DNA of 64,000 bases from Crossaster papposus (Eukaryota; Echinodermata; Asteroidea; Velatida; Solasteridae): the NCBI GenBank assembly GCA_037893245.1, contig JBAIAA010000093.1, positions 310,001-374,000 of the forward strand, given 5' to 3'. Below, in pieces: positions 32,401 to 56,828 of this stretch. A program made the translations under genes and the position numbers. Under the pieces are notes generated by a model. It did no database searches, was not told the origin of the DNA, and saw nothing but the letters and a program-made list of their open reading frames with translations. The stretch's first letter is position 1; every line of letters starts with the position of its first letter.

Positions 32401-33872
32401 CATGGATAGAGCAACTTTCAAAGGAGAATATTGAAAGCCCCAATTTTTGCACCTACAGTAGATATGGTGACAGTACATCATCGCCATCCTCATCGGATCG
32501 CTATGCAAGTCGTACTGGGTCAGGCTCCTCTTATACTAGGGACAGGGACCGAGATCGGGAGAATGAAAAGACAGCCTCAGGAACACCCTGCCAGACCTGC
32601 AAAAAGGTAATAGTGTTGTAACTGTTGTTTTTGTTTTATTATAATGATGGGAATAACACTGCATTAGTACATCTGGCATTGTTAAACAAGTTCGCCCCAG
32701 CCCCGTCCCCGTTGTCTCCAGATTTGTCTCCAGGTCCGTCCCCAGGTCCATCACACCTGTCACAGTGACACCAGTATTCTTAGACCCCTATTTTAGTTTT
32801 GTTCATTGCACATTTAAGTGAACCATATACTTTGTTTGTTTGTCTTAGCTGTTTGATGAACAGAAGTCGCTGGTCACAAAGCTGCAGGACCAGGTAAAAG
32901 AGCGTGACCTTGAGGTCGCTGAGCTGAAGATGTCGATGGAAAAATCCCAGCAGAAGTCTGATCGCTTCGACACCAAGTCAGTCGATAATGAAAAGAGGGT
33001 AAGGACCAGCAGATTGGTTGAACTGTTCAACATTAATTGAGCCTGATAGCTTGTATTCAACGAGTTTCCTAGTTGATTTCATATTCCAGTCTCTAGTCTT
33101 CTCTATGTAAAGTATTATTGCATAATAGAAAAGAAATCTTCAGTCTCAGAATTGTACAATATTTATTAATAATTACAGGAGATTTTATTGTAATTAACCA
33201 TTTTGTACTTAGCTCTTACATAATTTTATATTGCTGTTTAACCCGAACAGTGTTGAATCCTCCAATTTTAGTATGAATTGGAGAAAAAGTGAAAGTTGAA
33301 ATAATGTTTTCATCCCTGTTTTTGGTTTACCTGTTTTATTTCAGGAGAGAAGGGCATTAGAAAGAAGGCTATCAGAATTGGAAGAGGAAATTAAGGTAAA
33401 AACTAATATTAAAATTAAGTATTTGGAATGGTCTTGTGCCAAAAAAAGTGCCACCAAACTGTTACATTTTAGCTTACTTTTGAGTGATCCTATATATCCT
33501 ATATCTGGCAATCGTGATTTTTTTTTTACAATTTATTTTTGTAAACATAAGAACCATTGCCCGATGCCATGGTTGTAAAACTTAAAGTTAAACGATATTT
33601 ACTATAAAATACAACCCTCCATGAAATCCACCCATTCATGATAATTCAAACAATTACCATTGGTGTATCCTACCTTTTAACAGGAGTGGTTTAAAATTTG
33701 TCTGTTAAGCAGGTGCATAACTGAAGCGATGGAAACATTAGGCTAATTCTTATTAGTCCAGTTTTGTTGTTTCTTATCTTTGCAGGCAATGGAGCAATTG
33801 AAGTCTGATAACCAGCGTCTTAAGGATGAGAATGGCGCTTTAGTACGAGTCATAAGCAAGCTATCCAAATGA
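2311..33872 (+). CDS. PPP1R12A: Myosin phosphatase targeting subunit (MYPT), C-terminal 17 exons; 5' end outside window
   Basis: Seventeen exons join in frame to give about 714 residues ending at TGA 33870-33872. The family targets the PP1 catalytic subunit to myosin and other substrates, and Rho kinase phosphorylation of two Thr sites inhibits the phosphatase. Seen here: an acidic Ser/Glu stretch (exon 2), GLRKSGS and SSSSPK blocks (exon 3), a Thr-rich linker (exon 5), RRSTQGV (exons 6-7), RRATGV (exon 10), Ser/Tyr/Gly-rich exons 12-14, a coiled coil (exons 15-16) and a last-exon leucine zipper ending ISKLSK. The length fits residues ~320-1030 of human MYPT1. The ankyrin repeats and RVxF-type PP1 docking motif are absent because the window starts inside an intron after them. 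Exons: 2311-2428, 9081-9278, 9828-10034, 11005-11105, 12658-12843, 13954-14044, 14383-14475, 14827-14901, 20626-20785, 21001-21209, 23387-23443, 26216-26377, 32031-32083, 32459-32606, 32849-32998, 33345-33395, 33786-33872. It could be the single invertebrate ancestor of PPP1R12A/B/C rather than a strict 12A ortholog. Confidence 0.93.
5160..5445. mobile_element. Foldback (long inverted repeat) element
   Basis: Arms of ~100 bp are imperfect reverse complements: 5160-5262 and 5342-5440. The inner 17 bases (TTGGCTCATTAGTTTTT and its complement) are exact, and the outer ends share GACCCTC, GATTGAAAT and GGTGTTAT-like words. No coding capacity. Likely a non-autonomous DNA element; class unknown. 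Confidence 0.7.
7795..7868. repeat. TTTACAT / TTACAT microsatellite
   Basis: About a dozen head-to-tail copies of a 6-7 base unit (TTTACA, TTTTACA), interrupted once. Confidence 0.9.
7953..8026 (-). repeat. tRNA-derived element, minus-strand copy
   Basis: The reverse complement reads like a tRNA: GGCAAGATAGCTCAGTTGGT with an intact A box and D arm, an anticodon-like arm, and a consensus B box GGTTCGAGTCC. Acceptor and T-stem pairing are poor, so it is probably a SINE head or decayed tRNA gene rather than a working tRNA. Confidence 0.7.
8096..8166 (+). repeat. tRNA-derived element, plus-strand copy
   Basis: Same family as 7953-8026 in opposite orientation: GGGCAAGATAGCTCAGTTGG, then a degraded B box GGTTCAAGTCG. 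The spacer 8027-8095 is itself an inverted repeat (CAGTCTCCCAAAT against ATTTGGGAGATTG), so the two copies form one long hairpin. Confidence 0.7.
9081..9278 (+). CDS. PPP1R12A: MYPT exon 2: acidic Ser/Glu stretch
   Basis: 66 codons, phase 0 to 0, acceptor gtaacag, donor gtaatg. It encodes a run of alternating Ser and Glu ([16 protein letters not shown]), then a polar linker ending in a Thr/Pro-rich piece ([12 protein letters not shown]). Human MYPT1 has the same layout after its ankyrin repeats: an acidic Ser/Glu/Asp tract followed by a Ser/Thr/Pro stretch ending in a Lys pair. It is expected to be disordered. Confidence 0.88.
9308..9591. mobile_element. piggyBac-like MITE with TTAA target duplication
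   Basis: 284 bp flanked on both sides by TTAA (9304-9307, 9592-9595). The termini AGGGGTACTATGTCCTGAAAT and the reverse complement of the right end, AGGGACACTATATCCTGGAAT, match at most positions. No transposase remains. TTAA duplication is the hallmark of piggyBac-type transposition; the superfamily call is inferred. Confidence 0.75.
9828..10034 (+). CDS. PPP1R12A: MYPT exon 3: GLRKSGS and SSSSPK phosphorylation blocks
   Basis: 69 codons, phase 0 to 0, acceptor ctctttag, donor gtacat. [14 protein letters not shown] matches the MYPT1 segment around Ser445 (SPATW...GLRKTGS). PRSSSSPKL matches the segment around Ser472/Ser473, which in vertebrates is used by NUAK kinases with 14-3-3 binding, and by CDK1 to create a PLK1 docking site. 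The residues are seen here; use of these sites in this animal is inferred. Confidence 0.92.
10486..10536. repeat. Interstitial telomere-like array (CGCTAA/CCCTAA)
   Basis: About eight hexamers in a row: CGCTAA copies, then CCCTAA copies, then one CCTAAA-type variant. It lies inside the intron between MYPT exons 3 and 4, so it is not a chromosome end. The rest of this intron and the next show no coding segment. Confidence 0.9.
11005..11105 (+). CDS. PPP1R12A: MYPT exon 4: polar linker
   Basis: 33 codons plus two bases, phase 0 in and 2 out, acceptor atttctag, donor gttagt. The product is charged and low in hydrophobic residues ([10 protein letters not shown], then a Lys/Glu/Pro-rich end). The assignment rests on reading phase, which joins exons 3 and 5 exactly, and on position. 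Confidence 0.75.
11106..12657. other. MYPT intron with long C/T-rich 3' end
   Basis: No exon recognised. A GC-richer patch at 11510-11770 looks like an old interspersed repeat but could not be classified. From about 12399 to 12650 the + strand is almost only C and T, with C-runs at 12540-12550 and 12610-12622. Confidence 0.65.
12658..12843 (+). CDS. PPP1R12A: MYPT exon 5: Thr-rich linker
   Basis: One base plus 61 codons plus two bases, phase 2 to 2, acceptor ctcgcag, donor gtaaaa. After [12 protein letters not shown] it encodes a long Thr-rich run with Pro, Val and Ala. Human MYPT1 has a comparable Thr-rich stretch immediately before its RRRSYLTPVRDEE segment, as here before exon 6. The acceptor follows ~250 bp of almost pure pyrimidine. 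Confidence 0.88.
13241..13445 (+). mobile_element. TTAACCAGTTCG MITE family R2, copy 1
   Basis: It starts TTTACCAGT.TGCGCCG and ends GGCACGAAGTGGTTAA, i.e. inverted termini. Interior words GCAAAGTTTTCCCCAGATTC, GGATCGAGTTT and ATAATAATCC recur in the copies at 18171-18378 and 63031-63249. No coding capacity. Confidence 0.8.
13443..13563 (-). mobile_element. MITE family R2, copy 2 (partial, inverted)
   Basis: Reverse complement begins TTAACCAGTTCACGTCGGAT and includes GACGGATAAACACGTCTCGA, matching the left half of the family. It shares its TTAACC boundary with copy 1, so the two abut tail to tail. Confidence 0.7.
13954..14044 (+). CDS. PPP1R12A: MYPT exon 6: first Rho-kinase inhibitory site
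   Basis: The exon completes Arg, then encodes [16 protein letters not shown], a basic stretch and RRSTQ. This is the best conserved MYPT segment (human SYLTPVRDEESESQRK...RRSTQGV). The Thr equals human Thr696, phosphorylated by ROCK, ZIPK and ILK to inhibit PP1. The preceding Ser equals Ser695, a PKA/PKG site that blocks Thr696 phosphorylation. Phase 2 in, 0 out. The donor runs straight into a TA microsatellite. Confidence 0.97.
14045..14066. repeat. TA microsatellite starting at the exon 6 donor
   Basis: The donor GT of MYPT exon 6 is the first dinucleotide of an uninterrupted GTATATAT... run of about 22 bases. Confidence 0.95.
14254..14343 (-). mobile_element. MITE family R2, copy 3 (left half, inverted)
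   Basis: Reverse complement reads TTACCAGTTCGCACCGGAGG, then GCAAAGTTTTCCCCAGATTC and GATGCATAAACACGTTACGA, as in the other copies. It lies 40 bp before MYPT exon 7. Confidence 0.75.
14383..14475 (+). CDS. PPP1R12A: MYPT exon 7: [10 protein letters not shown]
   Basis: 31 codons, phase 0 to 0, acceptor caatattag, donor gtaaga. [14 protein letters not shown] follows RRSTQ directly, as GVTLTDLQEAEKTI does in human MYPT1. The rest is Lys/Asp/Glu-rich. In vertebrates this segment makes up the PP1 inhibitory motif together with the phosphorylated Thr. Confidence 0.95.
14827..14901 (+). CDS. PPP1R12A: MYPT exon 8: charged linker
   Basis: 25 codons, phase 0 to 0, acceptor ttggatag, donor gtatgt. 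It encodes [20 protein letters not shown] and a short end. RRVGRVS is a basophilic kinase-type context. Supported by phase and splice sites; similarity to other MYPTs is weak here. Confidence 0.75.
14940..15195. repeat. 24-bp minisatellite, ~10.7 copies
   Basis: The unit is close to CCGTCCAATTGTTTCAGACC + ACAC. Because 24 is a multiple of three, frames stay open on both strands (for example repeated NCFRPHPS on +, VWSETIGR on -). These are by-products of the repeat, not genes. Confidence 0.95.
18171..18378 (+). mobile_element. MITE family R2, copy 4 (full length)
   Basis: Bounded by TTAACCAGTT at left and AACTGGTTAA at right. Interior GATTCAAAACGGAT, AAACACGTCTG, GAGGCCGG, TTGGATTGAGTTTCGT and CTCGCGCCTGAGCTC match the other copies. 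~208 bp, no coding capacity. Confidence 0.85.
18376..18530 (+). repeat. Interspersed element R1, copy 2 (truncated)
   Basis: It starts with the TTAA that ends the R2 copy, then AAAGGTAGGATAAACCATTTGC, continuing GAATTATTAAGAAATGTCTT. It matches the first half of the copies at 73-342 (minus) and 46316-46605 and then diverges. Confidence 0.75.
19009..19333. repeat. 17/18-bp minisatellite, ~18 copies
   Basis: The unit is CCCCCTACGTTGCACTGG (18) or the same with one C fewer (17); the last three copies carry CTTTCACTGGG. The mixture of 17- and 18-base units makes all three + frames open with the same peptide words ([16 protein letters not shown]). Not a gene. Confidence 0.95.
20626..20785 (+). 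CDS. PPP1R12A: MYPT exon 9: Ser/Thr-rich linker
   Basis: 53 codons plus one base, phase 0 in and 1 out, acceptor ttgttgtag, donor gtattg. It reads [18 protein letters not shown], followed by Thr/Ser/Pro-rich sequence. This frame joins exons 8 and 10. The long open frame printed through this exon in another phase (from 20612) is not the coding one. Confidence 0.8.
21001..21209 (+). CDS. PPP1R12A: MYPT exon 10: charged helix and second Rho-kinase site
   Basis: Two bases plus 69 codons, phase 1 in and 0 out, acceptor cactctcag, donor gtatgt. A long Lys/Glu/Arg-rich stretch, likely a single helix, precedes [16 protein letters not shown]. That matches human ERRRPREKRRSTGVSF, whose Thr853 is the second ROCK site and is widely used as a readout of MYPT phosphorylation. 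Here the Ser before the Thr is Ala. Confidence 0.96.
21210..26215. other. MYPT introns around exon 11
   Basis: 21210-23386 and 23444-26215. No further exon recognised. The second contains a TA/CATA microsatellite near 24769-24793. The last ~350 bp before exon 12 contains a 60-codon open frame (25895-26077) of no recognisable family, which could be 5' leader of an alternative transcript. Confidence 0.5.
23387..23443 (+). CDS. PPP1R12A: MYPT exon 11: short acidic exon
   Basis: 19 codons, phase 0 to 0, acceptor tgcttag, donor gtaagtaag (strong). The product [19 protein letters not shown] is acidic, like the Asp/Glu/Gln-rich segment after SFWTQ in human MYPT1. Being a small symmetrical exon, it could be skipped without loss of frame. 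Confidence 0.82.
26216..26377 (+). CDS. PPP1R12A: MYPT exon 12: Ser/Gly/Tyr-rich; possible alternative first exon
   Basis: 54 codons, phase 0 to 0, donor gtaagg. It starts exactly with ATG in a good context (A at -3) and encodes [10 protein letters not shown], Ser/Tyr/Gly repeats and a Thr-Gly run. As an internal exon it would use an AAG acceptor after a pyrimidine-rich stretch with a ctaaaac branch-like site. As a first coding exon it would start a ~216-residue short form containing the coiled coil and zipper, similar in size to the vertebrate small subunit M20/M21. The sequence does not decide between the two. Confidence 0.75.
26378..32030. other. MYPT intron, 5.65 kb
   Basis: AT-rich, with a ~19-base G-run near 26627-26645. 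No exon, RNA gene or clear mobile element was recognised. The open frame at 29715-30086 has no recognisable domain or coding-like composition. Confidence 0.55.
32031..32083 (+). CDS. PPP1R12A: MYPT exon 13
   Basis: 17 codons plus two bases, phase 0 in and 2 out, strong acceptor gtcttttgcag, donor gtagga. It encodes [17 protein letters not shown]. Arg-Tyr within a Ser-rich context resembles human MYPT1 around SAGDRYDSLLGRSGS. Confidence 0.87.
32459..32606 (+). CDS. PPP1R12A: MYPT exon 14, with tandem NAGNAG acceptor
   Basis: One base plus 49 codons from the first acceptor, phase 2 in and 0 out, donor gtaata. It encodes Ser-rich sequence ([18 protein letters not shown]) and ends TPCQTCKK, just before the coiled coil. 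The acceptor reads cagtag, so splicing three bases later (exon start 32462) would drop one Ser and keep frame. [10 protein letters not shown] resembles LGRSGSYSY of human MYPT1. Confidence 0.9.
32849..32998 (+). CDS. PPP1R12A: MYPT exon 15: coiled coil
   Basis: 50 codons, phase 0 to 0, acceptor gtcttag, donor gtaagg. [20 protein letters not shown] begins a heptad pattern of Leu/Val; the exon ends SVDNEKR. Human MYPT1 has KLYEQ...AENEKLKAQL...LLEMEKR in the same place. The stretch mediates dimerisation and partner binding in the family. Confidence 0.95.
33345..33395 (+). CDS. PPP1R12A: MYPT exon 16: [17 protein letters not shown]
   Basis: 17 codons, phase 0 to 0, acceptor atttcag, donor gtaaaa. 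The 17 residues are nearly identical to human MYPT1 [17 protein letters not shown]. The frame stays open about 61 codons into the following intron (to 33578), so intron retention would replace the zipper. Confidence 0.96.
33786..33872 (+). CDS. PPP1R12A: MYPT exon 17: C-terminal leucine zipper and stop
   Basis: 28 codons and TGA, acceptor tctttgcag. It encodes [20 protein letters not shown] followed by RVISKLSK, nearly identical to the last residues of human MYPT1. In vertebrates this zipper is required for activation through cGMP kinase I-alpha and is switched on or off by an alternative 31-base exon just upstream. No such exon was recognised in the 390-base intron here. Confidence 0.97.
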
Positions 33873-36800
33873 TGAAGATAATCCTTCTGATTAGTGTCCT
33901 TTAGTGTTTTCATTTTGTTGTTTGACGTCTTCATTCAGGGAAATGGGAAAAAAGGTTTGAGATGATGCTGAGGTAGTTCATCAGGCCTGGGAACATTTGC
34001 TTAAAACGCAGATATTTCCCATGTGTAGATGTACAATAATCCTCAAATAGAAATACACAATCTGTATCCCAAAACATGCAAAAGTCTTGTCGTACATTCT
34101 GTTCCCATTTACATTCGATAAATGAAAATTGTTTATTTCAACAAATGAAGCATCATCTTAAGCCTTTTAGAAATGAAGTAGTCAACTTGATTTGAGGATT
34201 GAGCATTGTGGTTTTAGAACAAGTTGTATGTGATGTACACAAACATAGTGTGGAGGCTGCTATTTGTTTAAACAACTTGGAAAACACTTAACACATCATC
34301 ACACTTTCAACATAAAACATACAATTCCATGAAGTATTCCTTTAACAATTGAATGTAAAAGAAAAGCATTATTAACTGACAGCATTCTCTACAAATGGCT
34401 GTTTTTTCCTTTGTCATAATGCACATTTATGAATTGGATACTTATTCAACCCGCGACTTCATGGAGAAACAAAATTGAGAAGCCTGGACACAACAGAATT
34501 TGGAAATGTGAAAGAACGTGTGTGTCACTGAACAGTGAACAAACAGTGTACACAACTTGACTTTAGTAAAAGCAGCTTAAAAATGGCAGCCTCCTTTAAG
34601 CTTCGCTGTCTAAAAGAATTTTACATCATAATTGATGGCGTGACATTGACAGCGAGCAAGCCCCTTCCCCACCTTCTCTCTTTCCTTATTCATTATGACA
34701 GTGAAGCAAACTTGGACTGTAAGGAACGGTGTTACCCCCGACCTTCTTCCTTTCAGGAAGTTGGATAATAAATTAGTCACACTCTTCAAGGCACTGTCTC
34801 AAAAATGCACAAGATGCAGATCTGTACCATGCATCGTCCCTCTGCGACTCTCTGAAAACAAATTTTCCAACCCTGCATAGGGGTTTTTTTCAGGTGGATT
34901 TCAGTGGTGCAGTGGTACATATTTCGCTAAGTGCAATCTGCACAAATTGAACCTTAACATTAGCAAAGCTAGCAGAGTACAAGCCATTCATTCTTAATGC
35001 GTGCGACGTCACAAAGCATGTGCAGCGAAAATTCTCTGAAGTTTTGTAAAATCGCAGCGTGAAATTCTGTCGTGATGTCACAAATTCGCATTTGCCTTCG
35101 CTTTGGTGCGAAGTATGAACCAGTCTTAACAGTATAAAGAGATACTCCAATGTATCCCAGTGCACAGACATTTACTGTTTTGAACAAACAATATGTCACC
35201 TATATCCACATAGTAGTATGTGGATGAAATGCAGCATGATATTAAGACAGCCCTTGTGAGTTGTGGAGTAATGCTTACCCTGAGCTCCTGATATCAGTGA
35301 CACTGCTGAAGCTACCATTCCTAGCATGACAGACCTTTGCTTCACTGCCAGATAACCACCCTGACCACCCCCTTGACGAATTCTAAAAGCCTATAAATTG
35401 TTGTGTTTTCCAACTTTTCATTAGAGCAGAGTGTTTTCGGTAGCAGTGTAGAATGTACATAACCCCTCAACCCCTGGAATCATGTTCAAGTAAACCCAAA
35501 TCATTTAAGATGCAATGGGGAAAAAATATAAAAAGAAAAAGTAAAAAAAAAAAAGTTTGAAGGAAACTTGAACAGAAGAACTTTCAACTGTTTATTTGTA
35601 AAGTGTACAGAAACAAAAATAATGTTTAGCCTTTTTGTGTAGGCAGGGAAGAGTAATGAGTTGAGACCTCAGGTGACGCCATATTGCAAGTAGACTAAGA
35701 CTGTTAGGGGGTGTTTGTTGAGAGAAAAATTGTAGAAGTTGAGGTTTTGAGAAGAATCTATGGAAGTTGTAACAAAGCAGAATTGTAACAGAACACATAA
35801 ATGACAAGTTGAGAATGTGTACTGAAACGCCTTGTCAGTGCCATGGCAGTTTTTGTCATTGTGTAGAACGTCATCTCTGCACACTGGTCTACATGAACTT
35901 TGACTTTTGATATGGAAAAGATAACATTGGTGGCAGAAGTGGGATCAGTGATCATGCAAAGAAGTGCTGGCAGTACGGTGTATTGAAGCCAAGTCTGCCA
36001 TAAATTGAAGTACAATTGTGCCTTAGTTTGATGCATTCCAGCTTCTCTTAATCTTCTCTTCATTTCTTCATCTCAAAAGAGTTTGCATTGCGTATTTTGT
36101 TGCAGTGGGCGATAAATCATTTTGTTTTGGTAAGGGACATACCGTATTTAGCTTGTGTGCAATATATGGCATCTGGATCTTCGTTAACAAAACATAGATT
36201 CTATTTATTGTAGTTGTTAATCCACATGCCACAATGATACAGTAAGTTTTGTTTTTTTCTCTCTAGCAAAGTTAGATAGGATATGAATGATGAGTTAACC
36301 TTCATAGAGACATATTAGTTGGTTTCTCTATGTTAAATTTTTCTTTCATCTGAAAGTTTTTGTAGTTGACTGATGGATGGAACTTTTAGATTTAGACGGC
36401 CACTCGAGTAAGAAACATGAGGAGAAATGCTGTCCTAACAAGCGTCACATCACAATTGAAAAATAACTGACCACTTTGTGTATCAGCAACAAACTAAAAA
36501 TAAAACCACCATTTCTGAAGGGATAGTTTTAAAGAATACTGTGGCCAACAGCACCACCTTATTACATTACCTACAATCTCTTTATTTATATCTATGCTGG
36601 TTCAAATATTGGTCTTATATGCCACAGATTACTGTCTGTTTTATTGACAGACTTCAAACATTTTTGTCCGTCTAAAGCTTATGCTGTATGGCAATAGTCC
36701 TTGCCTTTTTGTACTTTTGTATATTTGTATAAAAAACCAATAGATTGTATTTTAATAGGATTAATACTCCGTTCCCTTGCTAGCTTATTACTGGCTCTAT

Positions 36801-44267: not shown

Positions 44268-44494
44268 TACGGAGCCCCTAAAGGGACATATGACGAATAC
44301 AAATCACTGTGACGAAATAATTTGAGTTTTTATTTCGTGCGCTCGAAATCATTTCGCGCCCACGAAATCATTTCGTGCACTCGAAATAACTTATTTCGTG
44401 AGCTCGAAATGATTTCGTGCACTCGAAATAAAAAACTCAAATTATTTCGTCACAGTGATTTGTATTCGTCATATGTCCCTTTAGGGGCTCCGTA
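44268..44494. mobile_element. MITE with ~70-bp near-perfect terminal inverted repeats and target duplication
   Basis: It begins TACGGAGCCCCTAAAGGGAC and ends with the exact complement GTCCCTTTAGGGGCTCCGTA. The arms stay complementary for ~70 bases through ATTTCGTC/GACGAAAT. The centre repeats TTTCGTGC-CTCGAAAT motifs. Direct repeats TGCAAG flank it at 44262-44267 and 44495-44500; the repeat can be read as 8 bases (TATGCAAG) if the terminal TA is counted as target. Little divergence suggests recent insertion. Confidence 0.92.
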
Positions 44495-45445: not shown

Positions 45446-45784
45446 ATGGCGGATTACAGAGCCAGAAGGCGTGGTAGGGGTAGCCCCGACAATGGGGAAG
45501 CAGACGATATAGACACGTCGCCTGGGTCTTCGTCCAAGTTGGAAGTAGCTGGCGAGAGCAGGGTGGCTGCCCGGCGGAGGGAGCGAGCAGCAGCCGCTGG
45601 GAAAGACGCCAGTTCGCCCGGGGAAGCTGATGATGTAGACAGCCGCGGTGCGGCTGGTGCGGCCGCTGGTGGTGGAGGCCGGAGATTGAAGGACAAGAAA
45701 GACACCGAAACATCCAAAGCCAGCAGGTTTTCTCACAGGAAAACCCGAGAAAAAAGACGGGGCACGGGAGTGGTTGTGCTACAG
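45446..45784 (+). CDS. Small MYPT-like gene, exon 1
   Basis: 113 codons, phase 0 out, donor gtgtgt. MADYRARRRGRGSPDNGEAD starts an Arg/Ala/Gly-rich region, clearly GC-richer than its surroundings. Two imperfect copies of (S)PGEADD(I/V)D lie around residues 15-23 and 63-71. The exon ends KTREKRRGTGVVVLQ. The open frame continues upstream to a GTG at 45425, but the ATG context and the protein make 45446 the likely start. Confidence 0.85.
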
Positions 45785-48700
45785 GTGTGTATAGAAACCA
45801 ATCCAAATCAAAATTTCCAATAATATGCCGCAGTCATCATGGTCAAATAAGGAAGAGGTGTTTTTTTTTTGGGGGGGGGGGGGGGGGCGGAGTTGTTTTA
45901 AGACTTATTAAATTAAATGCTTCCAGAAAATACATTAAACGGTAAAGGAAAAGTGTTTGGTAAAATAGTACGGGTTATTTCATTTTACCTGTAAAGTTAC
46001 AATTTAAACTTTTTGTCTAAAAATCTACTAGTTTGCCATAAAACGGAACCAGCATGAACATGGTTGTCATATTCTAGAAGTATGTAAAACCGGAAGAGTC
46101 TGCGTCAAGTCTAGTCTCGGCCCTTTCCTCTTCCCTGTGACTTCCTTGATTGTGAGTCACTCCTACCTTGTATTTGGGTCTAGGACAAGATGTGACAGGG
46201 GACCTTTCCTGTTTAGGATAGACACAAAGCCTGGGGAGCAGAAAGTTTTCTTGTGTCCAAATTCTTGTGTTTTTTATTTCAATCCTGCCATTTGCCATAA
46301 TACGGGTACCTTCCTTAAAGGTTCATTTTAAAGGACATCATTTTGCCGATATCTAAAAAAAAATTACTGCTGAATTATTAAGAAATATCTTGCATATTTG
46401 AAAGTAAATAATGATTGTAGGCATCCAGCAAAATGATTGCGCTAAATATCCTGTAATTGTAACAAAAAATTGAATTTTATTAAGAAAATTAATAATCGCC
46501 GGGCGGTGATCGCGATTTAAAAAAACAAAAAAACAAGAACAACTGCCCTACGCCTGTTGGAAACAAATGCCGTTTTTTCTTGCTTTTTCTTGGCATCCAT
46601 GATTCTACCTTTGAATAATTCTACAAAATCTCACCAACCCACCTGATGAATTGAAGGATGTGGGTAAATATGTGTAAGCTTGCTATAAGAAATTGCACCG
46701 AAACAAGGAGGTCAGTTAACTCCATGCTTCAAGAAGACAATGGGTTGCCTTTTGTTTTTCCCCAGACTGATATGATTTGGCTTTCAGAAAATGTGTAGAT
46801 ATATTTGGGAAGTAGACGAAGTGTGACCATCCACCACAAAGGAGAGTCTGTAAAGTTGAATTTTACACTTCTTGAGGTAGATGTAAATTTGGAAAGACTT
46901 CTAAATTTACATTAACCAAACATTATTTTAGTTAACATTTTGACTTTACAGCCCCGTTGTGGCGGATACTCACAATTGTAGGTTTAGAGCAGATTTTGTA
47001 ATATAAAAAAGGAATCTCTCCTCCCTTTTGAGCCATTGTATGTAAACCAACCCCTGCCCATGCAGGCAGTATTCAAAGTTCCGCTTTATTAGGAACAGAT
47101 TTGTCCCATTGAATGCAACAAGGCATTTAATGACATGTCCACACAGTCTAGTATTGTGATTGGTTTCAATTGAAGCTGTAAACATAGTAACAAAAACTTT
47201 CAAGGATTAGAGCTATATGGGTAAATCTTGGGATGATGTGTTATGCACAGGTTAGTGTCAGGGGTGTAAAAGCATAGAGAAGGGACCCATGGATAAAAGT
47301 TAGGGTTAGGGTCAGGGTTAGGGAGTGTAAAGAGGAATGGGCCTCCTCATTGAGGGTTAGGGGTGTAAACAGTATGGTTAGGGTTAGGGTCAGGGTTATA
47401 TGTAGGGGGGTGTAAAGAGGGATAGGCCTCCCCTTGAGGGTCAGGGTTAGGGGGTGTAGAGAGGGCCCGGCCTCTTCATTTAGTGTTATGGTTAGGGGTT
47501 GGGGTTAGGGTTAGGGTTATTAGTGTAAAGAAGGATGGGCCTCCTCATCGAGGGTTAGGGGTGTAAACAGTATGGTTAGGGTTATAGGGGGGTGTAGAGA
47601 GGGATGGGCCTCCTCATTTAGGGTTAGGGTTAGGGTTAGGGGGTGTAGAGAGGGATGGGCCTCCTCATTTAGTGCTAGAGTTAGGGGTGTAAACGTTAGG
47701 ATCAGAGTTAGGATCAGAGTTAGTGTATAAAGAGGGATGGGTCTCCTCATTGAGGGGTTTTGGCAGATTGGCTTCACTAGTATTACATTTTTACTATTTG
47801 TTTTCTATACCCATGTACATCCATGTAGGATGACACCTTACTAAATCCATGCATCCTTCTGCATGAATTTCATCTATAACTTATTACTATAATTTTTTTG
47901 TTGGTGGTTAGATGTCAACATAAGCAGAATTTGTCAAGATTTGCAAAAAGAAAACAGACGGGTAGGGCATGTGTGTGCAAACATTACATACTGTCACAAG
48001 CAGAGACTAGACCAAGCATACAGTGCACTGCTGTGCTGGTATACGTGTGCAGCTTGATTTTACTCCATTTAAGGAAACAACTCAAAAGAGGACCTTCACA
48101 ATAGAAGGCAATAGTTATTCCTGACAAAAGGTTTGCATATTTAGAGAACAAAAGCTACAGTACAGTCAGGGACATTGTTGCCATTAAGTCGAAAGAGCAA
48201 ATTCCAAAGATCCGGGTTGTGTATCATATGGAATGTTGCATGCATAAAAACTTTTTTTTTAATCAAAGTTGTTTCAAGTTGGAGTTTATAAACGTTTTTT
48301 GTTTTCACCATGCACCTGCCATTACTCATCACTTATGATTGGCTGCTGGTGTACCACAAAGAATTGACATTAATTGGAACTACATTACAAGTGCATGTAG
48401 GGTACTATGTAAACATCATTCATATTTATTCCAAAGTTTGGCACATATTCGTTCCAAAAAACTCTGCACCATAAACAATGAACACTATTCATAAATTTAT
48501 CTTGGTCCAAAACAGGACAGCATGAACAATCCTAATGTGTGTGGCGAATCCTTTCTCTTTTTTCTTTCATTTTCTCCCCTTTGAAAATTGTCACTGCTTG
48601 TAAACAGACTATGAATACATTCAGTAACTAGCCAGAGAGGCTTTTGAGTAAATATGCTGACTGGCTTGTCAAAGGAAAATGTCCTTGGAAGTAAATCCTA

Positions 48701-51700
48701 TAGTGACACTGATACAAAGTACCAGTACTTATGGTTAGGCTCTGCTCTGGGAAGGTTAAAGCTAATGCACCTAATGCACAGTTCCAGGATTAATACAGTA
48801 TTCATAAAGACCTAAGACATGCAGTATACCCATCCATTGGTCGAGAGCCCGTTATGTGGCTGGTTTTAAACGAATGATAAAGACGTGGCTGGCTCTGGCT
48901 GGCAGGTTTTAAACACTTTTCCAGTTTCACATGAAATTTGGCCCACCTTGGCTTAAAATCTAGTTGTTTTCAACCGCTCGGTCATAACACGCTAAACAAA
49001 GGTTTTAATTTACTAATAAACTGTAGAAGACCATGTTTCACATACATGTAATGCTTCAGGACCAAATCTGTTTTTTAATTTAATGTGCACATGTGCATTC
49101 CTAAAACCTCACCTTGTCTCCATTATTTAGAGAGACTAATGGCACATTCTTTTGACTAGGATTTTCTTAATAGCGATGATGTTTGTTTTCCCCATTAACT
49201 AACAGGATGAAGATACTGCTAATGCTACAGCCAATGTCAAAAGCAACACAGATTACAATGAGGACATTGCAAAAAAAGCAGACGATCACAATGGAACAAC
49301 TAATTCTTATGAGGTAGGTTAAAATCAAAGTCAAACATTGTTTTTTTCTGTACTTTTAGACAAAATTATTCACAAGTAAAGTTTGTTTAACCCTAACCCT
49401 CCCAAATCCTCCAAATTCCTCATTGCAAAATGCAGGATTTTGCAGGATTGAGGTCACTTGGAGTTTGATGCATTGCAGGATTTTGCAGGATTGAGGTTAC
49501 TTGGGGTTTTACCCCTGCAGGAATATGGAGGATTCAGGTTATCAGGCTGAATGTGACACACAAGGATTTTGCAGGATTGAGGTCACTTGGAGTTTGATGC
49601 ATCGCAGGATTTTGCAGGATTGAGGTTACTTGGGTTTTTACTGACTGCAGCCAGGGCAAGACTGCAGGATTTTGCAGGATACAGGCTGTATGGTCACCAG
49701 TGACCAATATTGGAGGATTTTGCAGGATTCAGGTTACTTGGAGTTTTAACAATTTAGGAATTGGAGGATTTTGCAGGATTCAGGTTATGTGTAAGTAAAA
49801 ATGGGTAGGGAGTTAGGGTTAACTAACTGCATGTCACATGGTTAGAAAGATCAACACAAATCTGTTGACTCATCAGTACTCAACCAATTCTAAAACTGGT
49901 TGTCCAACTCGTCCAAATTATTGCTGGACATTGTAACAGTTTCCAGTTTTAAAAAAAGGAAATGGAATTTTGAAGTGAAATTTACTAGCTATAATGTTGC
50001 CCCATGGATGACCAATATTGCTAAACATTGCCGAAAAATAAAATATGTCTGATATACTGTTTGTAACCATTACAAACTGCTGTACATGTTCTTGTGTAAA
50101 ATTTATAACAGAGAGCAAATTTATAAAAGTGATTTCGAGCTGATCATCGACAGAATGTTTTTACCGTATGCTTGGATAGTCTCAGGAGTGGGAAAGTGAT
50201 ATTCAACTGGTCGTGGCATTTGAAGATTTGCTGTAGGCTTAAAAGTCTAGCCTCATGTAAACCATGTAAAAGTGTACGGCATACTGTACGGCTACTGAAA
50301 AAATTGTTCATGCCCTTGTTTCTTCCCGTTTAGATTTTTGTAATTCACTTCTTCACCAACTACCTAAAACTCAAATAGCTCGTCTGCAAAAATTGCAAAA
50401 TACAGCAGCTCGTATCATTACACTTACAAAACGTAGAACCCACATTACACCTGTTCTGCACTCTCTCCATTGGCTACCTGTTCATTTCCGTATTGTGTTT
50501 AAATTACTTTTACTTGAGTTTCATTGTATTCATGGTTCAGCTCCAACATATAATACTGATTTGATTGTGCATTATAATCCTCCTAGGCGCCTTCGTTCTT
50601 CAAATACTACCTTACTTGTTGTTCCTAAGTGTAATAATTCATGGGGTGATCGGTCATTCGCACATGCTGGTCCCTCACTCTGGAATAAGCTGCCACAGGA
50701 TATCCGCAGTATTTCCTCTGTTCAAAATTTCAAAATTGCTCTCAAAACTCACCTGTTCGAACTAGCTTTCATGTAAATCCAGACTTGTCGTTATGTTTGT
50801 CTTTTGTTTTTGTTTTTTCCTTCTTGCGCCTTGAGCATCTTATTAGATGGAATGGCGCATTATAAATACTCGTTATTATTATTATTATTATTATTATTAC
50901 CAGTACATGGTTATTTGATCTGAAAGGTGTACACGTGTACATGATCTATAATTGGACATCATGGCCAGGGTTTTTCGTTAACTTTTTTGTCAGCCAGTCA
51001 GATCGAGTGAAACAGGCTCTTTATAACTAATAACTAATCAGGCTTTTTCACTATTCCGCATTAAAGTTGCATGTCTGATGATCACAATAATTTGACCCAC
51101 CAGGCGGACTAACTCAGGGGATGGTTTTGACTATAGTCTGCTACCTCTTCAATTTTACTGGCATTTTGCTGGCAGACTAACGGATTACCACTAAGGTTTA
51201 CCCGGATTTAAACATGTATGCCTAGAAATTGAGTAGTTCGAAAAGATGGTTATAATGACGGATTGAATTGTACAAGCTGCATATGGCCCAGGGGGTTTAT
51301 TCACAACTTATTCAACATCTAAGATCCTGCTTCACAAAATGACAAGAGTAGCGGTGATCTGGAGGTACAGGCATTCCGGGCATTCAATAGTGTTATATTT
51401 TGATTTGTTGTCAATTAAGGAAGGTTCATAATGGCAAAGGTTCTTGGACATTGGGGGTAAGGGTTAAATAATTCACGATAAATGGGCTCTTCATAAATTT
51501 GGTTTTAAATATATATCCTGATTTGAGTATGGTTATAAATTTATATAAAACTGACAATTGTTTATAAATAGTTTTTGAAACCCCATCAAGATTGTTCTGG
51601 GCAGTTGCCCTGAATGCACTGGGCTGACAACGGGCGAATAATTTCCATCAACCAGCCCAACTGACCAAAGAATTTTTTGTTCAATAACAGCTGGTGGGTA

Positions 51701-54700
51701 TTCAAGATGTTTTCCTTTTGCAACACAGAGAGGGTTCGCTGCTAACAATGCCAAAGTGTCGGAGTTCACAAGCACATTCCTAGATTGTGCTCTAGATCTG
51801 CAATTTAGTTTATAAGACCATTAGACTGGGATGCTTTAGTTTATTATTGCCACATTGGCACAAATGGAACAAATAGTACCGGTACTGCAGAACATCCTTT
51901 GACGTCATAACTGTCATGTGATGGTCATCATCTGGGAGATGAGTCAAGATGTCTTAATGAGGTGGGGGGCGCAGCAGCAGCTTGTTGGTGAAAAGATGGT
52001 CTGTAGGATCTACACATGTATAGCAACTGTACACTCAATTTAGTTTGAGTTAGTTGAGTGTCAGTGAAATGCAAAAATACTTTTGTCATTTTGTAAAAAA
52101 ACACACCACACAAATTAACACAGTGAGCTCAGAAAGCTTTTGATAATTTGTACCAGCATGTCGTACATTTATGTACGGTACAATGTGCATTTCAACTGAG
52201 CCAGATACACTCTTGCTTCCTAGTCATTTCCAGACACACATGTACCGGTACCATGCAGCTGGCTTTAACATTTGGACAAATTGTTAAATACTGGTAGCAT
52301 TATATTTACCAGGGCCCCCTTGTGTAAGAAATCAGCTTAAGTATGTACAGTACATCTGTAGACCACTGTTGAAATGTTGTAAATTAAAATGGTTTTGGTT
52401 TGACCTTGTGTATAAGGTTTGTACTTTGCCCACCATGTCTGTGTAGATACAGGGTAGGCATTATTGATAATGTGTTAATGCTGCCCATCCTTGACCAGTA
52501 CATCCTTGTATATCAGGGGTGCAGCATTTTCTGGCTGAGCAATAAATTACATCAAACAGCTGTCCTGTATACCATGGCAACGTCACCTGTCTGTTACATC
52601 CAGGCAGGGGATTTCACAGCATCACTGAAGCACAACTCTCTGATTAGTAAGAAGAGTTCATAAGTTGGGTTATAAATAATATCATATTGGGATCACTGCA
52701 CTTTGATCCAATTTATGCTTTAAATGTTTCTCCTTAGTCTAACCGTTTTGAGGCAGGATAAACTAGTTAAAGTATCATATTCTGATACCAGATGTAAGCC
52801 ACAGCATGATTTTGTCAGGTTACTTTGCACCTTTAATTCCTGTTCACTCTGTCATCAGTAATCCTGCAATGACCACTGCATACCTAGCATTACTCTATGT
52901 AGTACCAACTGATATTGAAACTTGGTGTCTACTCTACATGTGAATATACTGGAACATGCACACAGTATATATGGCATGCACAGTTCACTTGATGCAGTAA
53001 AGCCAAGTTTCCCATATTAGGAGCTGTCCCTGAATCGCTTTTGCTCTGCAATATGAAGGGATCCCTCCATTAGTTTCTGCAGCCAGGTCAGGACCCTAAT
53101 CTTGTGTAGTGTTTCACCAAAGGTCATCTAGGGTCAGGTGAAGGTCAAGCAGTTATAGACAGGTTTAAGGGCAGATTAGCTGTGAAGACCTGGTAATATT
53201 GGCTGGTAATTAATACCAATATGACTGGCTGTAAGCATGATAGCCATGTCAGTGTGTCTGCTCATCTCTTGAGATGGCCTCAGGGTCTTTTGTTTAAGTG
53301 AATGTCAGCCAGGAGCCTGGCTAAAGTCAATAAATAAAAGTCTCTTCATCAAATTCATTGACACAACAAACAGGGATTATATAGGGCCTGGTGCTGTAAA
53401 TCATACAACCAGTATTGCATGTTTACAGACAATTATGTTATAAATAAATGGCCTGAAAAGACTACCATACTGGCATTAATGTCTGTATGTCCATTCCCAG
53501 ACATACTTGTACAACTGAGTCACCCTGCTCCTAGCTGATCACATTGTAAATGATATTGATTACCTCCCATCTCTCTCATTGTGGTAAAGCTGAGGAGAAT
53601 GGCAGAGGTCATCAGGGTCAATGAGTATTGTAATATGAGTCACTATATTATAGACTGAGCCTGGGTTAAAAGTTAAGGAAGTTTGGGCAAACATTTGGAA
53701 AATGAACTGTTGTGAAAAACCTGAAATCTTAGTCGCTTGATATTTTGATATAAAATACTCAATGTCTTCTTATGCAGGGTCGCCATCATGATTGAGTGTA
53801 CAGTTGAACTAAAGTAATGTTGCTCTTGAAAGTGTACATTCCTGAGCCATGCAAAAATCCAACATTTATGGCAACATTTATGACCAGGTCGACCCAATTA
53901 GAAAATGGTCAAATTGGTCTCTGACTTGGCTAGGCAAATCTTTCGTAATTTTTCCTTTTACCAGACCCTGGTATCGTTCCAAATCAAAGATTGTTTCAGT
54001 TCTAAGATTTATGTAGATTTACTGAATACCAGGGAAACATGTAATGCCATACTCTCCTAACTGTCTCGAATTTCAAACCTTTCGGAAAATTAGTTTTATA
54101 TCGTGATTCTTGAAATATGTGAGACTAAATTTCAATTATGTCTTTTCTCTTGGTAAAGTACATTGTAACTAAGTTGTAAAAAGTTGTAAATAGGACCAAC
54201 ACTAACACTGCATATTTAGCACAAACAAGTTGTTAGTGAAGTTCCATTATGATAGAAAGATGCTCCAAGGTGTGTTTGACCACCTGGTCATTGACCTAAG
54301 TTTATTACACAAATACATCAATCATAGTCCTTTATGTAAGATGTTTATCAAACATAAAATACAAATTCTTTCTGGAATCTGAAATTCATTTAAAATGCCC
54401 TCTAGGCTTTTCTTTATTTGGATAAACGAAATAATTGGTCTGTCTGCTTACTGTGATAACTCCATTGCTTTCATAGACATGCCTTTATTTTTTGAGGACC
54501 CGAGTGGCAACTTTTGTAAACTGGAGCTGACAGGCTGCTCGTTAGCTGCCTGGTGGTTTCTAATTCCCCACAGTTTGCCACAGCATGCCTTTTGTCATAT
54601 TTTTGTCCATCCAGGAATTCACCATTTTCTTTTTGAACTTATTTGTTTGCAGACCCCTACTCACAGACGGCAAGCCACACCTATCAGGGATGATGAATCG

Positions 54701-54798
54701 GCCAATGGCAGTAGTAGTGAAATCTCAAGGATACGCTCAAGAAGGTTCGCTTCAAGCCACCCTTAACATGAAGAAATACAAACATATCCATGCTCTAT

Positions 54799-54831
<33 letters not shown>

Positions 54832-56828
54832 TGGGGAGGCTAATCATCCTTACTCGTCAGTTCTTGATAATCTCGCTGTTCCAATATTTGCTATAGGTTT
54901 CATGTAAACATTATATTGGACTCTACTGTTTGCATGAATCCAGTGGTTAATCACTTTGGTCTGTCAAGTCTCTGTGTTCTCTTAACTTTATTCAGACAAC
55001 TGTACATACATTTTGATTAAAATGACATACATGTACTTAAAAACCAGTTCTATATCATCTTTTCTAATATCTGAGAACCCTCATTTCAACATCTGCCCAG
55101 TTCCGTCTCATTTTGCCAGAACTCCTTATATTTCTGGGCATTTCCTTTGTTTGTCCTAGGAGACATGCCAGGGAGAGAGAGGAAGGAAGCAATACAAACA
55201 GCCCCTCGTCTCCTCGGTCAATACTAAGAAGAGAGGTGGATGGTAGGTCAGCAGAAGAATGGAAGAGGGTGAGATAAAGAACATAAGCCCCCCCCCCCCC
55301 CCCCCCAATGTTATTCTTCTTTAAGCCTTATTGCCCAGGATGCTGAGAAAGCATGTACTTAGCATGCCCCTGGATACATGGAGATCCTACCCTTTGATGG
55401 TTCCTCCCCCTGGATGGTTCTTCCCCCTGGATGGTTCCTCTCCCTGGATGGTTCCTCCCCCCTTTCCTTTTGATGGATCCTTCCTTTGTTCAAAAACAAA
55501 TTATGTATCAACATTTATTATGATTTGGATTAAAACTGTCACTTACATTTGTGTGTAAATGGGAAACATGTACATGTGTAGTTAAGGTGAATGAACTTGT
55601 ATAAATATTTTTTTTTGAGGAGTTACAAACTGTGTTTAATAATGCGCCCTTGTTATTTCTACCTGTAGTCTTGCCTCAAGTCACTAACTTGTTTGTGTCA
55701 TATGTTTCCCCTTCCATCTTTTGCATGTTTTGCATGGTGTGTGGATAACTTTGCTGTACGTGTTTCTGTGTATAACCAGATGTATGAACGTGAACATCGG
55801 GAGAATCGGCGGCTGACCCGGAGACTACACGAGTCTGAAGAGAAAATAGCCCGCTTGGAAGATGAAATCCAAATACTGACAGAAGTACATACTAATGTTG
55901 CCTGAGTATTTTTGTACTTTATTTCAGAGTGATCATTTTGATGTTTTGTATCTTTTACAAGTTGAATGTTACTTTGCTTGATATCAATTTATATTGTCAT
56001 TTTTGTTTGCGGTTAATACAAGCCTTTGTTCATCAGCCCTCTCCATTCCTACATTTGTATTTCTTTTACTGACTCTTTTTGAATTGTGTTAAACAAGTTT
56101 GTGCAGGCGGTGGTCACTGGTCCCATTGCCCACAAGAAAATTGCTAATATTTCAAGTTGGCAGTTTTCAAGTAAAAGGATATAATCAAATAACTGTCTTG
56201 TTTTTACATTAGTAAAGTTTCAAACGTTGGTGTGCGACTATCAATCTCTAGTGCGCACATAATAGATAGGAAAACAATATTGGACGACCAAATACAGACT
56301 AATAGTGCAGATTTTATTCAGTGCTATTCATTCCCAAATAGTTTCCGTAAAAGGTTGTTGTTAAACAAAATTGTGGTTTTAGTGTATGCTGCTATACACC
56401 CTGACAGATGGACAAACAGTGTTGGAATATAAGCCATTTAATTCTATAATTATATCTACCAGTAGCCTTATCTTCCAATACTCCTAAAAAAGACAAGTTA
56501 ACGCAGCACAAATGATGTTGACACTATAAGGTCATCATTGGTACAGCATTCACAGCTGTTCCACGTACCTACACGTGTATAGCCAATGATGGCAAGGTCT
56601 CTGCAGGTTTGTTCATTCGGGCAGATATACCGGTACATGTACAGTGATATTAGTGAGTTTCTACCATCCCTAAATTTATTTTACAAGGAAGTCTTGTCTC
56701 CAGACTTCTGTTTATTTATTTCAATGTTTTTCCTATTGTAGGACCTAGAGGTAGTGGATGAGGAGCTGGACCGGTCTAGAGAAGAGAACCGTGCATTAAA
56801 CAAGGCAATGTCTCAACTACGAAGTTAA
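45446..56828 (+). CDS. Small MYPT C-terminal-like protein (279 aa), tandem truncated paralog
   Basis: Six exons join in frame: 45446-45784, 49206-49313, 54653-54744, 55160-55268, 55780-55884, 56742-56828. The start ATG has A at -3 and G at +4. The N-terminal third is low complexity (Arg, Ala, Gly, Asp) with an internal duplication of GEADDID/GEADDVD. It ends HRKTREKRRGTGV, matching the second Rho-kinase site of MYPT proteins. A polar middle follows, then a coiled coil from SAEEWKRMYEREHRENRRL to KAMSQLRS. Intron phases (0, 0, 2, 0, 0) repeat those of the last part of the MYPT gene upstream on the same strand. There are no ankyrin repeats and no RVxF-type PP1 motif, so it cannot target PP1 by the known route. 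By layout it resembles the vertebrate small subunit M20/M21; a dimerising partner or decoy of MYPT is possible. Function is inferred. An unrelated coiled-coil protein is the main alternative, but the RRGTGV block argues against it. Confidence 0.82.
46316..46605 (+). repeat. Interspersed element R1, copy 3
   Basis: TTAAAGG start, then CTGAATTATTAAGAAATATC, GAAAGTAAATAATGATT, GGCATCCAGCAAAATGATTG, ATCGCCGGGCGG, ACAACTGCCCTACGCC and GGCATCCATGATTCTACCTTT at the end. It matches the reverse complement of 73-342 in the same order. Confidence 0.8.
47299..47758. repeat. TTAGGG-rich minisatellite (compound, ~50-80 bp unit)
   Basis: Runs of TTAGGG, GTTAGGGTC and TAGGGG alternate with a second block close to GTGTAAAGAGGGATGGGCCT + CCTCATT, which occurs seven times (near 47335, 47419, 47460, 47533, 47601, 47653, 47736). 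Repeated NEEAHPSLH words on the minus strand are a by-product. Confidence 0.92.
49206..49313 (+). CDS. Small MYPT-like gene, exon 2
   Basis: 36 codons, phase 0 to 0, acceptor ctaacag, donor gtaggt. Product is polar and acidic (DEDTANATANVKSNTDYNED, then Lys/Asp/Asn-rich). It takes the place of the short acidic MYPT exon 11. Confidence 0.8.
49431..49790. repeat. Minisatellite with GCAGGATTTTGCAGGATT core
   Basis: GCAGGATTTTGCAGGATTGA followed by GGTCACTTGGAGTTT-type spacer recurs about six times with units of roughly 45-70 bases. Later copies replace the spacer. Confidence 0.9.
50300..50898 (+). mobile_element. 5'-truncated LINE (CR1/L2-like), reverse transcriptase 3' end
   Basis: The frame from about 50300 to TAA/TAG near 50776 encodes the familiar post-RT segment: KIVHALVSSRLDFCNSLL, LQNTAARI, HITPVLHSLHWLPVHFRIVF, WGDRSFAHAGPSLWNKLP and LKTHLFELAF. 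It is followed by a short 3' UTR and an ATT microsatellite tail (50872-50898), as in full 3' ends of these LINEs. The frame is intact over ~155 codons, suggesting a fairly recent insertion. Clade is inferred. Confidence 0.9.
54653..54744 (+). CDS. Small MYPT-like gene, exon 3
   Basis: 30 codons plus two bases, phase 0 in and 2 out, acceptor tttgcag, donor gttcgc (not the best match to consensus). It encodes TPTHRRQATPIRDDESANGS and a Ser/Arg-rich end. Same phase pattern as MYPT exon 13. Confidence 0.75.
54801..54830. repeat. TAA microsatellite
   Basis: About ten TAA units, 60 bases after exon 3 of the small MYPT-like gene. Confidence 0.9.
55160..55268 (+). CDS. Small MYPT-like gene, exon 4
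   Basis: One base plus 36 codons, phase 2 in and 0 out, acceptor tcctag, donor gtgaga. It encodes RHAREREEGSNTNSPSSPRS and ends RSAEEWKR just before the coiled coil, as MYPT exon 14 ends CQTCKK just before its coiled coil. Confidence 0.8.
55290..55307. repeat. C homopolymer
   Basis: About 18-20 consecutive C a few bases after the donor of exon 4 of the small MYPT-like gene. Confidence 0.9.
55396..55472. repeat. 18-19-bp GGATGGTTCCTCCCCCT tandem repeat
   Basis: Four copies of a unit close to CTGGATGGTTCCTCCCC, the first and last diverged. Confidence 0.85.
55780..55884 (+). CDS. Small MYPT-like gene, exon 5: coiled coil
   Basis: 35 codons, phase 0 to 0, acceptor ataaccag, donor gtacat. MYEREHRENRRLTRRLHESE followed by EKIARLEDEIQILTE has clear heptads of Leu/Ile. 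It aligns with LYEQILAENEKLKAQL in human MYPT1 and with exon 15 of the upstream gene. Confidence 0.88.
56742..56828 (+). CDS. Small MYPT-like gene, exon 6 and stop
   Basis: 28 codons and TAA, acceptor cctattgtag. DLEVVDEELDRSREENRALN then KAMSQLRS. The last ~20 residues resemble the MYPT zipper ([20 protein letters not shown]) in the spacing of Arg, Glu-Asn, Ala-Leu and the final Leu. A weak donor at 56824 could splice in frame to 58471. Confidence 0.82.
   Translation, partial: DLEVVDEELDRSREENRALNKAMSQLRS

Follow-up and report, generated by a model that had tools for sequence, protein, structure and literature searches.

The stretch of DNA analysed here, referred to as the window, comprises 64,000 nucleotides of the genome of the asteroid Crossaster papposus (assembly GCA_037893245.1, contig JBAIAA010000093.1, positions 310,001 to 374,000 of the forward strand). 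Two genes in it are of interest: the 3' part of a MYPT gene, which encodes the targeting subunit of myosin phosphatase, and a small gene on the same strand, which begins 11,571 bases downstream of the MYPT stop codon (33873-33875). The small gene is best explained as the PAWR (Par-4) ortholog of this species, and we put the probability of this explanation at roughly 0.83. The evidence comes from genomic sequence.

The small gene is composed of six predicted exons (45446-56828), which join to 840 nt encoding 279 amino acids plus the stop codon. All five introns are of the GT-AG type, with the phases 0, 0, 2, 0, 0. The predicted exons, with a slash marking an exon border, are:

45446..45784, + strand: exon 1; start codon, Arg/Ala-rich N-terminus and phosphosite RKTREKRRGT(107)GVV; ends in phase 0
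49206..49313, + strand: exon 2; acidic linker, phase 0
54653..54744, + strand: exon 3; Ser/Arg linker, ends in phase 2; weaker donor AAG/GTTCGC
55160..55268, + strand: exon 4; Ser-rich linker up to WKR, phase 0
55780..55884, + strand: exon 5; first half of the coiled coil, MYEREHRENRRL...
56742..56828, + strand: exon 6; second half of the coiled coil, stop codon TAA

A previous interpretation, made from the letters of the window alone and called the sequence-only reading here, had described a truncated MYPT paralog of 279 residues at this position, 11.6 kb downstream of MYPT on the same strand. Its coordinates, exon borders and intron phases were confirmed, as were the motif KTREKRRGTGV in exon 1 and the start of the coiled coil at the border of exons 4 and 5 (WKR/MYE). 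It was also right that the parts of MYPT required for PP1 docking and the ankyrin repeats are absent: no RVxF-type PP1 docking motif occurs in the 279 residues, no ankyrin match was found between the MYPT stop codon and the end of the small gene (scan with human MYPT1, matches over 24 bits), and the first inhibitory site of MYPT has no counterpart. The human PAWR, human MYPT1 and SYT1 sequences used as queries and comparators in this study are working versions and not database records.

Exon 1 showed a guanine-cytosine (GC) content of 0.605 and an observed/expected (o/e) CpG ratio of 0.86, compared to 0.374 and 0.48 across the whole window. As a sign of a promoter this is weak, because a MYPT coding exon reaches a CpG o/e of 1.52. 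When the small protein was searched against the whole genome of 1.02 Gb, it matched its own six exons only (6/6 matches at E up to 10; 17 candidates scored), and MYPT was not matched within this limit.

Several other features lie in or close to the small gene. Intron 1 contains TTAGGG-rich, telomere-like tandem repeats at an internal position (47406-47723). An open stretch of 168 codons in intron 2 (50270-50776) resembles by eye the end of an open reading frame (ORF) of a non-long-terminal-repeat retrotransposon; it matched no Pfam family at E up to 1. About 1 kb upstream of the gene (44268-44494), a perfect inverted repeat of 64 nt flanks a centre of 99 nt, which itself holds imperfect inverted repeats, and the whole resembles a short foldback element of the miniature inverted-repeat transposable element type.

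The coiled coil supports the assignment to PAWR. In a PDB search with the small protein, the best of five matches was the Par-4 coiled coil 5FIY (E 2.6e-8, 83 residues ungapped), a chain which we take to be from rat; the second-best match reached only E 0.025. No MYPT chain was matched at E up to 10, though a 48-residue MYPT1 chain (5HUZ) is present in the PDB. With human PAWR added to the profile, 5FIY was matched with E 6.5e-40 and no MYPT chain occurred among 16 chains; this E value arises partly by construction, because human PAWR is nearly identical to the 5FIY chain. Coiled coils were further compared by Smith-Waterman (SW) scores against shuffles which preserve the heptads. The score with Par-4 (SW 130, z 7.8) was reached by none of 1000 shuffles, whereas those with the MYPT of the window (SW 70) and with human MYPT1 (SW 78) were reached by 52 and 8 of 1000, respectively. 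Over the whole length, the small protein and human PAWR gave SW 177 (0/300 shuffles). At the phosphosite, 11 of 13 residues are identical to human PAWR, 9 to human MYPT1 and 8 to the MYPT of the window. T107 presumably corresponds to T163 of human PAWR, and according to the working sequences T163 and T853 of MYPT1 are presumably the threonines of the shared motif. The small protein shares with human Par-4 the phosphosite RKxREKRRxTGVV and an ungapped C-terminal coiled coil, but it is shorter (279 versus 340 amino acids), its threonine is preceded by Gly where Par-4 has Ser, and its linker can hardly be aligned.

The location of the gene fits as well. We assume that human PPP1R12A, which encodes MYPT1, is also situated at 12q21, on the same strand as PAWR and upstream of it; the small gene likewise lies beside a PPP1R12A ortholog. 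For human PAWR, 12q21 is given in a review (PMC7790818; this and the other articles are cited from extracts). In Nile tilapia, PPP1R12A, PAWR and SYT1A are described as lying in a row, and teleosts are said to be similar (PMC11727018); the human pair is not set out explicitly in that article. SYT1 was not found in a 264-kb stretch around the pair of C. papposus genes at E up to 1. Most likely, the PAWR ortholog itself is an ordinary gene, adjoining MYPT as it does in a fish. Long ORFs in the surroundings of both genes appear receptor-like by eye, and ankyrin matches about 60-68 kb past the end of the window, on the opposite strand, were judged by eye to belong to an inversin-like gene.

Some observations weigh against the assignment to PAWR. 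The part of the small protein outside the coiled coil gave only SW 53 with human PAWR (z 2.4; reached by 24/1000 shuffles) and scored higher with MYPT, namely SW 84 (z 4.3) with that of the window and 77 (z 3.8) with human MYPT1. A MYPT-like linker would fit a descent of the gene from MYPT, but it could instead reflect a shared low-complexity composition. In a search of the 264-kb stretch with human PAWR, exon 1 was the top match with only E 0.005, and the coiled-coil exons were not listed at E up to 10. Furthermore, neither the caspase site EEPD nor a VASA-like motif occurs in the 279 residues; the extract of the same review (PMC7790818) reports both from human Par-4 and calls the caspase site conserved. 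In our judgement, these two elements are not required of the PAWR family outside vertebrates.

The adjoining MYPT gene is, on its sequence, real. The exons for its ankyrin repeats and KVKF motif are situated 3.3-15.5 kb upstream of the window; the window itself contains the two inhibitory sites and the C-terminal zipper. The tail scored 92.7 bits with the family PF15898 (cut-off 32.4), and this cut-off was exceeded at one place in the 1.02-Gb genome. The exon model was drawn up by eye on the basis of splice sites and reading frames:

13952..14044, + strand: exon with the first inhibitory site (SRRSTQ), without counterpart in the small gene
21000..21209, + strand: stretch with the second inhibitory site; exon start approximate, site ends at 21209
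23387..23443, + strand: acidic exon, phase 0, by eye
26216..26377, + strand: Ser/Gly-rich exon, begins with ATG; not present in the small gene, by eye
32031..32083, + strand: exon ending in phase 2, counterpart of exon 3 of the small gene
32459..32606, + strand: exon ending in CKK, counterpart of exon 4 of the small gene
32849..32998, + strand: coiled-coil exon, LFDEQKS...
33345..33395, + strand: coiled-coil exon
33786..33875, + strand: last exon with the C-terminal zipper (33786-33872; PF15898 E 2.0e-9) and stop codon TGA

After the second site, this model contains seven introns with the phases 0, 0, 0, 2, 0, 0, 0, and not six (0, 0, 0, 2, 0, 0) as had been claimed. The small gene thus has two exons fewer, as it lacks the Ser/Gly-rich exon and one coiled-coil exon. 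The claim that only one exon is missing holds if the Ser/Gly-rich exon is set aside as not always used; human MYPT1 has no counterpart of it. This exon encodes a Ser/Gly/Tyr-rich stretch with a low CpG o/e around it (0.39); it may be a regular internal exon, or a short MYPT transcript may begin with it.

The comparison of both genes raises the question of whether PAWR descended from MYPT. It is likely that PAWR and the MYPT tail share a common ancestor, and PAWR probably arose by a tandem partial duplication that copied the 3' half of MYPT, prior to the separation of echinoderms and vertebrates; the evidence for this origin, which is again drawn from sequence comparison, is moderate. To this extent the truncated MYPT paralog of the sequence-only reading survives, as an ancient duplication, while the gene itself is better read as a PAWR ortholog. 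The small protein resembles the C-terminal half of MYPT1/PPP1R12A in the motif of the second site, a Ser-rich linker interrupted by a phase-2 intron, and a C-terminal coiled coil that starts at a matching exon border. It differs in the lack of the PP1 docking motif, the ankyrin repeats and the first site, and in a shorter coiled coil (63 versus 95 residues past the border) with a PF15898 score below the cut-off.

The explanation that competes best with descent from MYPT, though we regard it as unlikely, is that PAWR is not derived from MYPT, that chance or regulatory reasons account for their being neighbours, and that the kinase site and the coiled coil are convergent. The distribution of the motif speaks against this. 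A degenerate DNA pattern for RE[K/R]RRxTGV gave seven matches in the 1.02-Gb genome (one for the backward control pattern), and the only two genes among them are MYPT and the small gene, in which the matches lie 24.6 kb apart. The other five matches have nearly identical flanks and short ORFs (35-52 amino acids) and are therefore regarded as copies of one interspersed repeat. This repeat reads REKRRGTGV (REKRRCTGV in one copy), probably by chance.

The arrangement of the parts likewise speaks against convergence. In both genes the motif is followed by an acidic stretch, a Ser-rich linker, the coiled coil and the stop codon, the intron phases are compatible, and the two-exon block around the phase-2 intron measures 201 nt in the small gene (92 + 109) as well as in MYPT (53 + 148). 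The distance from the phosphothreonine to the end amounts to 172 residues in the small protein, 177 in both human PAWR and human MYPT1, and 243 in the MYPT of the window (189 without the extra exon). Furthermore, the whole small protein gave SW 112 with the C-terminal half of the MYPT of the window, which was reached by 0/300 shuffles of either kind. The parts outside the coiled coil scored above nearly all shuffles: for the small protein, 2 and 3 of 1000 shuffles reached the score with the window and human MYPT, respectively, and for human PAWR none of 1000 did so in either case. A profile comparison yielded a probability of 83% over the last 50 columns; the compared profiles are thin, with two sequences each. 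In addition, the last residues of human PAWR matched the end of PF15898 (positions 71-101 of 101, 17.3 bits). As a side observation, TPIRDDES in exon 3 resembles TPVRDEES, which presumably precedes the first inhibitory site of MYPT; the order of the parts differs.

A PAWR of other origin is favoured by the behaviour of the coiled coil, and the following results count against descent from MYPT. In four comparisons, the coiled-coil scores were reached by 52, 8, 94 and 18 of 1000 heptad-preserving shuffles. This is too often, and the likeness of the coiled coils alone was rejected as proof of descent. For the small protein, PF15898 gave 16.5 bits, under the cut-off of 32.4, ranked second among 12 families, and scored close to unrelated coiled coils. 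For human PAWR, ATG16 and two other families outrank PF15898. Generic coiled-coil families of Pfam score similarly or better. In the whole genome, PF15898 gave six matches at E up to 10, two of them being MYPT exons and one being exon 5 of the small gene (positions 2-39, E 0.85, starting three codons before the exon border); two of the three matches outside the locus score slightly above exon 5. Moreover, the agreement at 201 nt could be due to chance, and the phase pattern is not rare.

It is very improbable that the small gene is a lineage-specific, truncated duplicate of MYPT and not PAWR. The motif, the adjacency and the exon pattern shared with MYPT would agree with such a duplicate, as would the linker, which scores higher with MYPT than with PAWR (84 versus 53). 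However, the coiled coil is far nearer to Par-4 than to the adjoining MYPT (130 versus 70), the PDB search matched Par-4 and no MYPT chain, and the same pair of neighbours occurs in a fish, according to the extract of PMC11727018. An unexpressed or decayed copy, which would agree with an exon model known from genomic sequence alone and with the weak donor of exon 3, is hardly credible, as the frame is open across six exons with GT-AG introns and the first exon is CpG-rich.

An internal MYPT isoform was rejected, because MYPT ends in a stop codon of its own and the small gene has separate coiled-coil exons. Isoforms of this kind are the short products M20/M21 of PPP1R12B, which are made from transcripts that start inside a MYPT gene. 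They resemble the small protein in being short and having a MYPT-type C-terminus, but the small gene is separate, with a first exon and coiled-coil exons of its own. It was suggested previously that the gene represents a separate route to the M20/M21 design. This can no longer be upheld, since the gene is better read as an ortholog of the known PAWR/Par-4 and the neighbour pair has been published for a fish.

As a PAWR ortholog, the small gene would encode an adaptor of 279 residues with a basic low-complexity N-terminus, one site for a basophilic kinase (T107) and a C-terminal coiled coil. If this adaptor acts like vertebrate Par-4, its coiled coil would bind the C-terminus of MYPT and shield the inhibitory sites of MYPT, so that myosin phosphatase would stay active, and phosphorylation of T107 by Rho-kinase would release the small protein from MYPT. 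Judged by its sequence, the echinoderm protein retains both parts which this model needs, the phosphosite and the coiled coil; binding, phosphorylation and the effect on the phosphatase are inferred from vertebrate work.

MYPT1 is reported as a binding partner of Par-4, and according to a review Par-4 activates the phosphatase by masking the inhibitory sites of MYPT1 (PMC4819215). Both proteins are substrates of Rho-kinase in human arterial muscle cells, MYPT1 at T853 and Par-4 at T163, and Par-4 is said to detach from MYPT1 once phosphorylated (PMC6910671). The extract of the same article states that the shielding mechanism, shown in cultured cells, is questioned in vascular tissue, which counts against the model proposed here. 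The sequence-only reading had suggested a dimer partner of MYPT or a decoy substrate of Rho-kinase. A MYPT partner and Rho-kinase substrate agrees with this literature (PMC6910671, PMC4819215), but the published model is one of phosphatase activation by covering the inhibitory sites. ZIPK should not be assumed to be a partner of the echinoderm protein, because zebrafish Par-4 is reported to be bound by rat ZIPK and not by human or zebrafish ZIPK (PMC4139802).

The mitochondrial contig of the assembly is best translated with genetic code 9; by eye, ND4L and COX2 follow COX1, and ND1 is on the opposite strand, which agrees with an echinoderm of the sea-star or brittle-star type. As a further observation on the assembly, a 5.3-Mb contig contains one full-length, stop-free COX1 match and, elsewhere, two overlapping partial ones, with a local GC content of 0.47-0.49 at these matches. 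This contig is perhaps of bacterial origin.

Taken together, we consider it rather probable that PAWR originated as a tandem duplicate of MYPT's 3' half before the echinoderm/vertebrate split and that both genes have been neighbours since. Neither a MYPT origin of PAWR nor an invertebrate PAWR is stated in the titles and abstract openings of the open-access literature searched. What remains of interest at the locus is how PAWR originated and that the MYPT/PAWR pair is present in an invertebrate; this pair would make the origin testable in a genome where one place only exceeds the MYPT-tail cut-off. The tumour suppressor Par-4, which has many partners, gains a plausible parent gene, and its link to myosin phosphatase may predate its role in the cell death of vertebrates. 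If the proposed origin is true, the control of myosin phosphatase by Par-4 would be an ancient example of a tail copy that binds and shields its parent, and Rho-kinase would govern parent and copy alike through the motif they have in common by inheritance.

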